A DNA stretch of 64,000 nucleotides from Acidimicrobiaceae bacterium (GTDB taxonomy: Bacteria > Actinomycetota > Acidimicrobiia > Acidimicrobiales > RAAP-2), in the NCBI GenBank assembly GCA_003132305.1, contig PKXJ01000018.1:194244-258243 (forward strand), read 5' to 3'. Below, one piece after another: positions 22,094 through 26,375 of the stretch. The translations under genes and the position numbers were made by a program. The notes beneath the pieces are model-generated. The model saw only the letters and a program-made list of their open reading frames with translations. It was not told the origin of the DNA and searched no databases. Position 1 is the first letter of the stretch. The number at the start of each line of letters is the position of its first letter.

Positions 22094-23135
22094 TCACACG
22101 GTCGAGGTCTTCACCAGACATGCAACTTCCGCTCGGCAGACAGTGGCCCGGCGGAAGATTTGTTCGGAGGTGCCGTCGATGTACCTCGGTGAGTCCGAGA
22201 AGAGTGGTTGAAGATGCATCGGCTTCCAGGTTGGTCGCGTTTCAATATTGGCAGCTTCCAGCGACTCACGGATCTGGACGGCGTCAATGCCAGCGATTTC
22301 TGGATCAACAGTTATGCAGCTCAACCACAAGTTGGGCGCACCCCGGACGGGAATCGGTGCAAAAGACACACGATGAAACCTCCCTAACGCCGCCTAGTAG
22401 CGGGTTCTGAACCCGGCGCGGCACGCCATTCACTTCTCCAGGATGGCCCGTTGTGCTCGACCGAAGGCAGCCAGAGCGTTTGAGAGCCGGTAGTTATAGC
22501 CAACCTCTGTGTGTTCGTAGAGGGCAGCCCCATCTGACCTGACGGGTTCCGTCTCGGGCCTAAGTGGAAAGTTTTCGGGCACGCGATGCGCTCTCGCCAT
22601 TCGGGTACAGAAACGTACCACCGTTGCTTTGATGTCACAATACTTGTTGTCGTTAAAAGAAACTACGGCGAAGGCGACAAACGAGACGGCTAGGGCGCCA
22701 TCTCGTTACGCCCCTAGAGCCTTAGCGGCATCTTCCACGACGGGGACTCTATATTCCGCAAAGAGTCGAGACAGCCGAGAGTAATCCGCGCACTGCCCAT
22801 ACAGGTTCACCACCGTGGCGGCCATTGGCAATTTTCCGGCCCTGCCCGATCTTTAAGTACCTCACGCACCAAATCTGGCGATAAACACCACGACAAGCGC
22901 TCGCTATCAACAAAGATGGCCCGAGTTCAATCGTACAACGCGGCGTTCGCAGTTGGAACAAAGGAAAGCGACGGTACCAGCACTTCGTCACCCGGTCCGA
23001 TTCCCAGTATCACGAGAGCGAGATAAAGAGCCGCTGTCTCGATGGAAAGCCGAACGGCGAAGGGCATCCGGGTCCAGTGAGATACCTCCTCCTCGAAAGC
23101 GTCAAGATCAGGTCCGATTGGAGCAATCCAATTAG
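22094..23135 (-). pseudogene. DegT/DnrJ/EryC1-type aminotransferase, main part (frameshifted)
   Basis: PLP-dependent sugar aminotransferase broken several ways. Going down the minus strand: NWIAPIGPDLDAFEEEV and GIGPGDEVLVPSLSFVPTAN (N-terminal half), then, in shifted frames, VVNLYGQCADYSRLSRLFAE and VPVVEDAAKALGA (the region before the PLP lysine), SFNDNK, HTEVGYNYRLSNALAAFGRA, and the C-terminal RPTWKPMHLQPLF. At least three frame changes and stops are present. The first 31 residues lie 3.1 kb away at 26283-26375, separated by an IS1595-type element. In an intact state it would make an amino-sugar nucleotide for the polysaccharide. Confidence 0.9.
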
Positions 23136-23188
23136 GGGGATGATATACCTCACACATCCGGAAACGGGTGCATGAGATGACGACTAGA

Positions 23189-24184
23189 TCATGGAAACTG
23201 CCGGGCGAACTCACTCAGCACGAGATGCACGAAGCTCTCCACTCGTTGGAGCGTGGCTACGGCAGCCCTCCCGTCGCCAAAGGCTACGAGAGGTCTCGCG
23301 AAACCTGCTGGATTGATTTCTGGCTCCACAGGCGGGACCAACCGCGCTCGCATCACTTCGAGGTCGAGTTCGAGCGGCTTGCCGATTCCAGTGACCTGCC
23401 AATCGTTGGTCTCGATATTCGGGTCGATAGATTCGGTCGGCGCCGGATAGACAGGGTGATCCATTCTGGTCACCACCATAAAGGTTCCAGGCCGAGTGAT
23501 CCCGATTGCCTTGGCTTGAGCAACCGGGATTCGCGCGATTTGGAGATAGGTCAAGTCCAATTGAGACGGCAGCATGAAAATGGGCCGACCAATACGGTGT
23601 TTATCGTCGTTGGCCAGGTCGCGCAGGAAGGCAAGCTGGTGGACGTAATCGCCATGCCAGGAATCGGCTCGCCCGTTTACTCCGTGGTACGGCTGGAATC
23701 GCTCGATGAAATCCCAGTGAGGTTTGCTGATCTGTCCTCTAGCTCGTCCCTGCTCAGCCCAGAGGTCGGGACTATCGGTTATGGGGAAATAGACCCCCTT
23801 CGGGTCTTTGGGGAATCCAGTCGTAGAGAAATCACAGGCGAGTTGCCACGCGAGTTGATCGAGCGCAGGGTGGAGGTTCTTGGCAACATCAGCGACCACA
23901 TGGGCGAAGTCTTCGGCGAATTGATCGAGGACAGGCAATTCGCTTACGCAAAACAGGTGCTCGCCCGATTGCGCGTCCAAATTTGCTCGGATCACTGCGT
24001 GGTTCGCTGGGAAGGTGAAGGTCTCAGTGATGTTGTGTTCCAGTGCGGCAAGGTGACGACGCGCCCAACCCAATTTACTGGCGGCGGGGGCTAATAACCG
24101 ATGACGGCGCAACTGTTCAATATCGATGAGGTTGGGGGGCGTGCCGCCCGCCATGGATATGTTGACCTGGTTGAAGGCGAACAA
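23189..24184 (-). CDS. Hypothetical passenger protein of the IS1595-type element
   Basis: Protein of 331 residues starting MFAFNQVNISMAGGTPPNLI. A conserved-looking core contains NLHPALDQLAWQLA and HQLAFLRDLANDDKHRIGRP, a pattern found in bacterial hypothetical proteins where the HPxLDQLxW and N/DDKHR segments are invariant. No membrane segment or enzyme motif was recognised. It lies fully inside the inverted repeats, oriented like the transposase. It is probably cargo of the element; function unknown. Confidence 0.7.
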   Translation of the reverse strand: MFAFNQVNISMAGGTPPNLIDIEQLRRHRLLAPAASKLGWARRHLAALEHNITETFTFPANHAVIRANLDAQSGEHLFCVSELPVLDQFAEDFAHVVADVAKNLHPALDQLAWQLACDFSTTGFPKDPKGVYFPITDSPDLWAEQGRARGQISKPHWDFIERFQPYHGVNGRADSWHGDYVHQLAFLRDLANDDKHRIGRPIFMLPSQLDLTYLQIARIPVAQAKAIGITRPGTFMVVTRMDHPVYPAPTESIDPNIETNDWQVTGIGKPLELDLEVMRARLVPPVEPEINPAGFARPLVAFGDGRAAVATLQRVESFVHLVLSEFARQFP

Positions 24185-24285
24185 TTGGTATGGCTCGTTA
24201 CTTATATTCGATCCGTCCTAACCTGGGGACTGGCATACTTCACGCGCCCGCCATCTTGGCAAGGTGATATACGGGGCGGTGCCCG

Positions 24286-24468
24286 ATGAGTCGTTCACTG
24301 GAGCGTCTTACCGAATTGGAGCGCGATAACGCATTCTTGCGCGAGGAACTTTGGTCTCAATGGGAGTCCAACCATTCGGAGCATTGTGACCGTGACTGGC
24401 CTCACCCTTCCGGTGCCCGGTGCCACTGGCCCCTCCCTGCCATATTGGGGGGCCCTCCGTGGCACTAG
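24286..24468 (+). CDS. Small hypothetical protein inside the IS1595-type element
   Basis: Frame of 60 codons starting MSRSLERLTELERDNAFLRE, a predicted helix, then a short region rich in Cys, His, Trp and Pro (SEHCDRDWPHPSGARCHWPL), which could bind a metal. It fills the gap between the two minus-strand passenger genes and overlaps the end of one by four bases. No strong ribosome-binding site is seen, so coding is uncertain. Confidence 0.35.
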   Translation: MSRSLERLTELERDNAFLREELWSQWESNHSEHCDRDWPHPSGARCHWPLPAILGGPPWH

Positions 24469-25073
24469 GCGCTCGCTTGTATTGCCAGAGGCATGATCCG
24501 CTGGACTTCGACAACGATTGTGGGGAGGTTGTACCTGTCCCCCCAGAAAATGAGATCGCCGGTCGATGGATCAAAGCTCCGAAACATCTCGTCCTCGGGG
24601 ATACCTTTGATCATCGCCGCCACATTGCCGATGTTCATATCTACATAGTTGTGGTCGGTGGAGATCGCAAACCAGGCGTCCAGCCGCTCATCAAAGTGGT
24701 CGAAGTGGTTTCGCATAGAAGTAGGTCGCAGGGGCGACGAGTCAGCCACACCGAGACTACGCCTCAATGGTTCCCGCTCGACCCCGAACTTGCCCCGTTG
24801 CCCCCAAAGGGCCTTGGAGATATTAGCTATTGCCGACAGGAACGACTGGATCGCCAACCAGGGCGGAGCACTCCAATCCATTCCGATCTCAATCGCCTTG
24901 GCGAGTCGTTCATTGTCTGGCATATCAAAAACTTCGGAAGTACGCGCACGCACCAGGTCATGGTCATCGTGCAAGCTGGCTATTCGCCGTGTCAGTTCAT
25001 CGTGCGACAGGAGAGCAAATTTGCATTGAATCGCAATCTGCGCCTGGAACAATTTGAGCAGAAACGAGTCCAT
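24465..25073 (-). CDS. Hypothetical passenger protein of the IS1595-type element
   Basis: Protein of 202 residues, mostly helical by appearance (MDSFLLKLFQAQIAIQCKFA, ASLHDDHDLVRARTSEVFDM), with a WLAIQSFLSAIANISKALWG segment that is amphipathic rather than clearly transmembrane, and a C-terminal FDPSTGDLIFWGDRYNLPTI. I do not recognise the family. It lies within the inverted repeats between the transposase and the 331-residue gene, on the same strand. It could act together with that gene. Confidence 0.6.
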   Translation of the reverse strand: MDSFLLKLFQAQIAIQCKFALLSHDELTRRIASLHDDHDLVRARTSEVFDMPDNERLAKAIEIGMDWSAPPWLAIQSFLSAIANISKALWGQRGKFGVEREPLRRSLGVADSSPLRPTSMRNHFDHFDERLDAWFAISTDHNYVDMNIGNVAAMIKGIPEDEMFRSFDPSTGDLIFWGDRYNLPTIVVEVQRIMPLAIQASA

Positions 25074-25164
25074 ATCTCACCTAACCCTTGGAGGAAGATG
25101 GATAAACCGACTGAGGCGCCATCATTCATGCCGAATTGTAACTCTCTAGACCTAGGATGTGCTT

Positions 25165-25305
25165 ATGGCGACACGTCACGAGAAAATGACTCGAAAGCCC
25201 AAGAAAACAAAGGCACAATCCGAGGCACAGCACTTCGAGGACGTGGCCCGAAAACTCTTCAAGGTGCCCAAGTCCGAGATTGCTCAGAAGGACGAAAAGG
25301 CTTAG
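25165..25305 (+). CDS. Lysine-rich small protein
   Basis: Frame of 46 codons reading MATRHEKMTRKPKKTKAQSE, then AQHFEDVARKLFKVPKSEIA and QKDEKA. The first half is strongly basic and disordered, the second forms an amphipathic helix; the form FEDVARKLFKVPKSEI looks like a genuine conserved small protein. Its stop overlaps the stop of the convergent transposase gene by four bases. Role unknown; it may be an element-encoded regulator. Confidence 0.5.
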   Translation: MATRHEKMTRKPKKTKAQSEAQHFEDVARKLFKVPKSEIAQKDEKA

Positions 25306-26240
25306 TTCCCAGCCTTCAATTCCTCGTAGGTGACGCGTTTTCCAGTCACGGCAGAAGTCACGGCAACCATTAGCTGAAGGTCATTCAAGTCACGGTTGTT
25401 GTACGAGAACGTGCGCTCGTCCACGTAACGAACGGTGTGCTTGGGCGCGTTGTGGGTGTAAGTGCCCTTCCATGCTCGCTTGTAGAGGTTCCAAAATCCC
25501 TCGATGGAGTTCGTGTGAACGTCTCCGCTCACGTACTCACCAATGCCGTGGTTTACAGACTTGTGCTCGTAAGTCCTCTTGAGACCGAGGTACGCCCGAG
25601 CCTGGTCGGTGTAGACGGTTGCCCCGGACTCAACCCACGCACGAATGCTGGCTTGAATCGTCGTGGCCGATACCGTCTCAATCACGTTTGCCACCAACGG
25701 ACCACCGCGCTCCAAGGCGCCGTGGATGGCAACCTTGTCCGTGTAACCCGTTCCGTGAATCTTGCGCTTTCGATCTACAGCGTGCATGTTCTTCGCGAGT
25801 CCGCCAATGTACGTCTCGTCAGTCTCCACGGTGCCCGACAACTTGCGAAAGGTTCCGCTTGCCATCGCGAGCCGAATGCGGTGGTTCATGAACCACGCCG
25901 TCTTTTGCGTCACACCAAGAGCGCGACCGAGTTCGTGCGACGATATGCCGTTCTTCGAGTTGGCGATCAGCCAAATAGCGGGGAGCCACTTGTCGAATCC
26001 AAGGGACGAGTCCTCGAAGATGGTTCCGACCTTCAAAGAGAACTGACGCTTGCAACCCTTGCATTTCCAAATCTTGCGCGTGGTCAAGAACGAGGTCTCA
26101 TTGTGACCGCAACGAGGGCAAACTACCGGACCATCCGTCCAGCGCAGACCCTTGACAAAGTCAAGGCAACGGTCGGCGTCGTCGAAATAACGAATCGCCT
26201 CGATGAGAGAATTTGGATGGTTTGTAGTCGTGTTTTTCAT
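25302..26240 (-). CDS. IS1595-family transposase (ISXO2-like)
   Basis: DDE-type transposase of 312 residues. It has an N-terminal zinc ribbon (CPRCGHNE ... WKCKGCKRQFS), a helix-turn-helix region (SHELGRALGVTQKTAWFMNH) and the ISXO2-like catalytic domain with TVETDETYIGGLAKN, GATVYTDQARAYLGL and HTNSIEGFWNLYKR (the DDN/E acids). The start is ATG 26240; the open frame continues upstream through the inverted repeat into the interrupted aminotransferase, which is a fortuitous fusion. The gene looks intact, so the element may still be able to move. Confidence 0.93.
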   Translation of the reverse strand: MKNTTTNHPNSLIEAIRYFDDADRCLDFVKGLRWTDGPVVCPRCGHNETSFLTTRKIWKCKGCKRQFSLKVGTIFEDSSLGFDKWLPAIWLIANSKNGISSHELGRALGVTQKTAWFMNHRIRLAMASGTFRKLSGTVETDETYIGGLAKNMHAVDRKRKIHGTGYTDKVAIHGALERGGPLVANVIETVSATTIQASIRAWVESGATVYTDQARAYLGLKRTYEHKSVNHGIGEYVSGDVHTNSIEGFWNLYKRAWKGTYTHNAPKHTVRYVDERTFSYNNRDLNDLQLMVAVTSAVTGKRVTYEELKAGN

Positions 26241-26282
26241 ACCCTTATTCTCCCAAACGGGTGTGACATGTATATCAGTCCC

Positions 26283-26375
26283 CCAATTAGAGTCAATAGC
26301 CTTGGGCAAGGCCTCCTGCTCAAGATTGAAGACATCTGGTGCGGAGAGAAAGTTCGGTTCACGTCTCGTCTCCAT
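26283..26375 (-). pseudogene. N-terminal piece of the interrupted DegT/DnrJ aminotransferase
   Basis: Encodes METRREPNFLSAPDVF and then QEALPKAIDSNW, after which the IS1595-type element begins. Removing the element and one CCAATTAG copy joins AIDSNW directly to IAPIGPDLDAFEE in the same frame. This proves that both pieces were one gene. Confidence 0.88.

Follow-up and report, generated by a model that had tools for sequence, protein, structure and literature searches.

Here we describe a 3,147-bp mobile element located at positions 23136-26282 of a 64,000-nucleotide stretch of DNA (hereafter, the window) from contig PKXJ01000018.1 of an Acidimicrobiaceae bacterium (assembly GCA_003132305.1). 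Our preferred reading, to which we give about even chances, is that the element is a transporter insertion sequence (tIS) of the IS1595 family that carries a phage-type, HEPN-like immunity or toxin module. The candidate module comprises two genes, coding for proteins of 331 and 202 amino acids (aa), whose families are called here the 331 family and the 202 family. The inverted ends and the 8-bp duplication of the element enclose both cargo genes. Moreover, the layout formed by the transposase, a small open reading frame (ORF) on the opposite strand, and a co-directional 331-family gene recurs in other IS1595 elements, with 331 sequences that differ greatly. Genomes, contigs, and loci used for comparison are designated with G, C, and L numbers.

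Borders, insertion site, and transposase

The element is bounded on either side by an exact 8-bp repeat, CCAATTAG, at 23128-23135 and at 26283-26290; at two given abutting places, eight bases would agree by chance with a probability of 1.5e-5. The inverted ends, GGGGATGATATACC... (23136-23161, plus strand) and GGGACTGATATACA... (26257-26282, read on the minus strand), are imperfect, with 20 of 26 positions equal in an ungapped comparison. Elements of the IS1595 family such as ISApl4 have terminal inverted repeats starting with GGG and an 8-bp target duplication (PMC12561309), and both features are found here.

The transposase (312 aa; 25302-26240, minus strand) matched the profiles PF12762 (6e-36), PF12760 (5e-14), and NF033547 (1e-51), all above the curated cut-offs. 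It retains the motifs DETY, VYTD, and HTNSIEGFW and two CxxC pairs, and, judging from these matches and motifs, it is an intact-looking, ISXO2-like DDE enzyme with a zinc ribbon. Thus, the initial annotation, which described an IS1595-type element with exact borders, inverted repeats, and an apparently intact transposase, is borne out on each of these points. The own genome contains a single full copy of the element. Three further matches are short and partial: two are on contig C11, where a left end stands by itself and a second transposase is represented in part, and one, on contig C21, corresponds to the internal segment.

A piece of the left flank, which extends 7 bases into the element, matches DegT_DnrJ_EryC1, placing the insertion in a DegT-type aminotransferase gene on the minus strand, with the start of the frame at 26291-26375 and its continuation at 22927-23135. 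When the two flanks were joined in a script at one CCAATTAG, a single reading frame was regained. The rejoining of the split gene, described as perfect by the initial annotation, stands as far as this frame is concerned, but the gene is not otherwise whole: over 22094-23135, at a distance from the element, an additional stop and shifts of frame point to further breakage or to mis-assembly. A search for a natural empty site gave none, since the left flank had a match in 1 of 109 genomes, its own, and in no relative.

Recurrence of the layout beside IS1595 transposases

We examined 41 distinct 331-family loci, counting two copies in L194 as one locus; four further places, G576:C61, G534:C49, G681:C326, and G681:C480, lie outside this set. 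In 12 of the 41 loci, an IS1595 transposase lies upstream at a distance of up to 1.5 kb and shares the strand of the 331-family gene (that of L200 being a fragment). The density of transposases in relatives, for an assumed mean genome of 2.3 Mb, would lead one to expect about 2e-4 per locus. A small ORF in the opposite orientation is present at 19 of the 41 loci. Considering the loci with both transposase and 331-family gene, this ORF follows the transposase on the opposite strand in 11/12 cases, compared to 4/43 control IS1595 loci (one of the four is weak). The controls were 47 IS1595 loci without a 331-family gene, and the 43 with at least 300 bp downstream were counted. The small-ORF profile was built from the positive loci themselves and the counts lean toward them, so the Fisher value of 1.3e-7 is descriptive.

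The small ORFs are of two types. Type A (EPSQxTxKGLEIPVPKR-like) adjoins the 331-family gene in 17 of the 41 loci, 16 of which were identified by script. The remaining one, L192, was included manually; its small ORF lies 22 bp from an earlier start that an internal stop cuts off. Eight of these 17 loci have no co-directional transposase in the available sequence, three having less than 200 bp upstream. A type A small protein had no plasmid match. Type B (VARKLFKVPKSE-like) occurs in the window's element and in the G080 element; it touches the 331-family gene in G080, and in the window's element the 202 gene intervenes. In the other 22 of the 41 loci neither type was detected by these tests, although one of them, L209, looks frameshifted. 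Three of the IS1595 loci that lack a 331-family gene also have a type B-like ORF, followed in one case by a PIN-domain gene. At one IS1595 locus (L181:1504-3880; G307:C36), a row of genes consists of the transposase, a type B-like ORF, a gene whose 276-aa product is of unknown family, and one for a PIN-domain protein.

The type B ORF of the window's element (25165-25305, plus strand; 46 aa from ATG, VARKLFKVPKSEI type) is convergent with the transposase and has a homologue at the same place in G080. The initial annotation counted one or two small proteins in the element: this one is supported by its homologue, but the ORFs of 60 and 62 aa received no support from the Pfam and NCBIfam scans. 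The 62-aa ORF (24101-24289) shares sequence with the beginning of the 331 gene and is probably spurious. The 60-aa ORF (24286-24468, plus strand) lies between the cargo genes, has a Cys/His-rich second half, and matched no family. Upstream of both the small ORF and the cargo there is a segment (25085-25197) that is conserved at 79% in the own contig C21 and in parts in G080 and G086.

Among 11 elements tested, five have exact 8-bp duplications that enclose the transposase, the small ORF, and the 331-family gene: besides CCAATTAG, these are CTATTTAA in G080, AAAACAAG in G223, TAACGCAA in G468, and ACATCGGT in G492. The scripted end search returned none for L063, L186, L188, L192, and L198 in the available sequence, and L114 gave a palindromic match alone, with no duplication. 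In G086, matching ends surround a 331-family gene and a gene for a 136-aa membrane-type protein, with no transposase, which makes it a non-autonomous derivative. Membrane-type proteins without a Pfam match are encoded beside 331-family genes at L062:152-568, L061:5169-5579, and L058:7543-8379 (G080, G086, and the own contig C21).

The slot persists while the cargo changes: the transposases of the window's element and of G080 are 82% identical, whereas the 331-family proteins share 21% identity. The closest sequence to the element's 331 protein is the copy in the transposase-less G086 element, at 44-46% identity. Across 11 elements the distance matrices of transposase and 331 protein were uncorrelated (r 0.12, p 0.22; r 0.07, p 0.44 after removal of the window's element). 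On a tree of the 41 331-family proteins, 13 rows bear the IS1595 label (among them G086, which has no transposase, and the copy on C21); the label requires 9 changes against a mean of 11.2 for shuffled labels, with 42 of 500 shuffles as low and many weak forks in the tree. This fits a repeated capture of 331-family genes by IS1595 elements, short of proving it.

The cargo families and their relatives

The 202-aa protein (24465-25073, minus strand, open frame) belongs to a phage and prophage accessory family. Its relatives were found in 17 IMG/VR viral contigs, 7 plasmid records, 3 phage records, and one contig of an Actinomycetota metagenome-assembled genome (MAG), and the family profile, run over 296 genomes of the class, matched the own genome alone. 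In an alignment of 18 members (the element protein, the MAG protein, and 16 viral proteins), R121 and H126 are invariant (18/18), with N or D after the R (R-[ND]-x3-H). In the HEPN motif, too, the R is often followed by N or D. HEPN domains carry an Rx4-6H motif (PMC3710099), and the R-x4-H of the 202 family fits it. The Pfam scan of the 18 members gave four unrelated-looking single matches (0.038-0.088) and none at E 0.03, so the 202-aa protein was not filed as a HEPN member; none of the 18 matched PHROGs at 0.01.

The 331-aa cargo protein (23189-24184, minus strand; a TTG start is listed and the true start is uncertain) belongs to a family characterized by LD...DKHR, whose members share the blocks K..RA..HL, GD..xNLRxALD, FP, QP, and LxNxDKHR. 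Of 296 genomes of the class, 9 have a member of the family, as do 30 of 396 of the phylum, the own genome being counted. In the alignment the H of DKH is kept in 44/44 rows. No family match at 0.1 was obtained for 13 members, and one of seven members matched PHROGs at 0.01. The element's 331 protein had no plasmid match and, by single-protein scan, no relative in viral contigs, and the same was true of another family member.

The two families meet in temperate phages. In the Gordonia phages Samba and ZiggyZoo, gene 33 belongs to the 202 family (E 3.1e-28 and 1.9e-28, respectively) and gene 32 to the 331 family (4.6e-33 and 7e-33). The two genes are co-directional and 33 bp apart, 202 and then 331, which is the order and strand relation of the element; the tail genes nearby run on the other strand, a serine integrase lies a few genes away, and gene 33 retains RNHVEHFDDR. 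The search for the pair outside the element, proposed with the initial annotation, thus yielded both these phage copies and the 331-family genes at the same place in other IS1595 elements. No type A or B small ORF was found near the phage pair among ORFs of at least 60 aa, the size scanned. Furthermore, when the predicted structure of the 202 protein (mostly helical, with a good predicted local distance difference test score, pLDDT, of 85 and a predicted template modeling score of 0.79) was compared with a viral structure library, the sole match below 0.001 was an uncharacterized protein of Gordonia phage Madeline, whose 202-family gene lies in the lysogeny region with a repressor, a metalloprotease, and an integrase. 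At least one opposite-strand neighbor is present in 14 of 15 viral 202 loci (from a mechanical ORF list, read by eye).

Some relatives of the cargo have defense genes as neighbors. In the MAG contig JADDQX010000006.1 (L014:2301-7588), the 202-family gene has a type IIG restriction enzyme on one side and two TIR-like, ThsB-type genes on the other. In G012:C54 (L064:6373-8996), a 331-family gene directly follows the cyclase and the two-transmembrane (2TM) effector of a cyclic oligonucleotide-based anti-phage signaling system (CBASS), overlapping the end of the effector gene, and it is possibly an additional CBASS-linked gene. In G195, a 331-family gene is near type I restriction and PD-(D/E)XK genes.

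Interpretation and competing explanations

The 17 viral contigs with 202-family genes, the presence of the pair in two temperate phages, and the restriction, TIR-like, and CBASS neighbors suggest a role in defense. Indeed, among the three roles that the initial annotation offered for the passengers (service to the host, defense against phages, and control of the element), defense or toxin-type immunity has the most circumstantial support from these sequence comparisons. The 202 and 331 proteins would form an anti-phage (superinfection-immunity) or toxin-type module. Both would most likely be HEPN-like RNases, restrained until infection or loss of a partner, and the oppositely oriented small ORF would regulate or neutralize the adjoining cargo gene. 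In favor of this reading are also the invariant R-x4-H of the 202 family, the HEPN toxins among the best structural rows for the 331 protein, the recurrent layout beside IS1595 transposases with its exact duplications, and the exchange of cargo. Protection of the host by the cargo, or a penalty for losing it, would then be part of the reason why the element is retained. Since the passengers appear unrelated to transposition, the element can be considered a tIS.

Several observations weigh against the immunity or toxin reading. Neither cargo protein (both undescribed, as the initial annotation had supposed) matched Pfam or NCBIfam at E 1 or better, or PADLOC-DB 2.0.0 at 0.01; against the sequences of solved structures, the 202-aa protein had no match and the 331-aa protein a chance-level match alone (0.36). 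The R of NLR is kept in 44 of 45 rows of the 331 alignment, the exception being the element's own protein, which has H there. At the place of the family's R-x4-H, whose H is itself present in part of the rows only, this protein reads NLHPALDQ; the Rx4-6H motif is absent from it, so it was not filed as a HEPN member. This 331 copy may be altered or inactive, with the 202 copy retaining its motif. The predicted 331 structure is weak (pLDDT 58), and Foldseek against the PDB returned nothing below 0.001 for this model or for the 202 model. In a second PDB comparison, eight of the ten best rows for the weak 331 model were HEPN toxins or HepT/MntA (Z 7.2-8.4, 119-132 residues aligned), 5yep being one of them, but for helical bundles a Z below about 13 may reflect a mere common arrangement, so the HEPN resemblance is a lead. 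The same comparison with the 202 model gave unrelated helical bundles alone (best Z 8.1); HEPN entries were absent from its rows, which shows nothing either way. Samba and ZiggyZoo are nearly identical in this region and count as one independent case. The small ORF of the window's element is of type B, and most 331-family genes are partnered by type A. Lastly, the defense neighbors amount to one locus each for CBASS, type IIG/TIR-like, and type I restriction genes, and the defense profiles were applied to few neighborhoods, from which no rate can be derived.

The constant place of the cargo beside the transposase and the excess of small ORFs over the control loci would also be expected if the cargo served the transposon as a module for regulation or addiction, limiting transposition or stabilizing the insertion with no direct anti-phage role. 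This is the main rival explanation, although we consider it rather unlikely. The toxin-antitoxin pairs of Tn3 transposons are a precedent for it (PMC7157771): there, as here, a candidate toxin module is fixed beside transposition genes, although the transposon family is another one and the Tn3 toxins belong to known families, whereas those of the element are putative. On the other hand, eight loci hold the small ORF and the 331-family gene with no co-directional transposase, the 202/331 pair resides in phages, and the distances of transposase and 331 protein do not correlate. It is improbable, in our judgment, that the element spreads a host-fitness or metabolic cargo of unrelated function, the R-x4-H and the helical folds being coincidental: the lack of known-function matches and of Foldseek-significant PDB structures favors this explanation, but the residence in phages and prophages, the restriction and CBASS neighbors of relatives, and the invariant motif speak against it.

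It is highly improbable that the element trapped host genes and that its passengers are their decayed remains, the outcome that the initial annotation gave as fatal to its proposal. The lost near-invariant arginine of the element's 331 protein would be coherent with decay. However, both frames are open, matches are rare in relatives (5 of 148 genomes for the 331 family and 3 of 148 for the 202 family, own genome included, with the G050 match of the latter unsupported by the family profile), and the relatives of the cargo sit in IS1595 elements and phages; on these grounds, the cargo does not look decayed.

Returning to the immunity or toxin module, a broader version of it is possible, and we advance it tentatively: IS1595 elements may serve as a shuttle for fast-diverging immune effectors, in which a conserved small protein (of EPSQxTxKGLEIPVPKR or VPKSE type) and a HEPN-like DKHR effector share one slot next to the transposase and are exchanged with phages, as an unnamed type of toxin-antitoxin or defense system. 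Transporter insertion sequences of the IS1595 family were reportedly described by Siguier, Gagnevin and Chandler in 2009. IS1595 elements with passenger genes are already known (PMC8496243, PMC3129680), and the element resembles those tIS in its IS1595 transposase, inverted ends, 8-bp duplication, and internal passengers. It differs from the elements described there in its two cargo families without a profile match, in the recurrent, oppositely oriented small ORF, and in the wide divergence of the 331-family alleles that accompany closely related transposases. Compared to HEPN-MNT (HepT/MntA) systems, the weak 331 model resembles the HEPN toxin chains, but the element has a small ORF in place of the MNT partner: no MNT nucleotidyltransferase antitoxin was matched among the seven element ORFs scanned with Pfam and NCBIfam. 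Prophage-mediated defense in Gordonia phages such as CarolAnn (PMC6426606) likewise concerns accessory genes of temperate Gordonia phages. In the literature searched, which left ISfinder and most subscription papers outside, neither the two families nor the small ORF and the shared pair were described, and the titles found on HEPN with IS1595 concern other subjects.

Simple insertion sequences are rarely listed among the vehicles of immunity genes. Here, an IS1595 cargo slot is occupied by widely divergent members of a single undescribed family. The analysis provides two protein families whose candidate residues lend themselves to tests of toxicity or phage protection, and more genes of this kind may be found by inspecting the corresponding slot in other IS1595 elements.

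Two plus-strand ORFs of the element, of 308 and 317 aa, were set aside as antisense shadows, the 308-aa one having no family match. Finally, another IS1595 element (L071:6597-9019; G122:C7) carries a DNA methylase-HNH endonuclease fusion as cargo.

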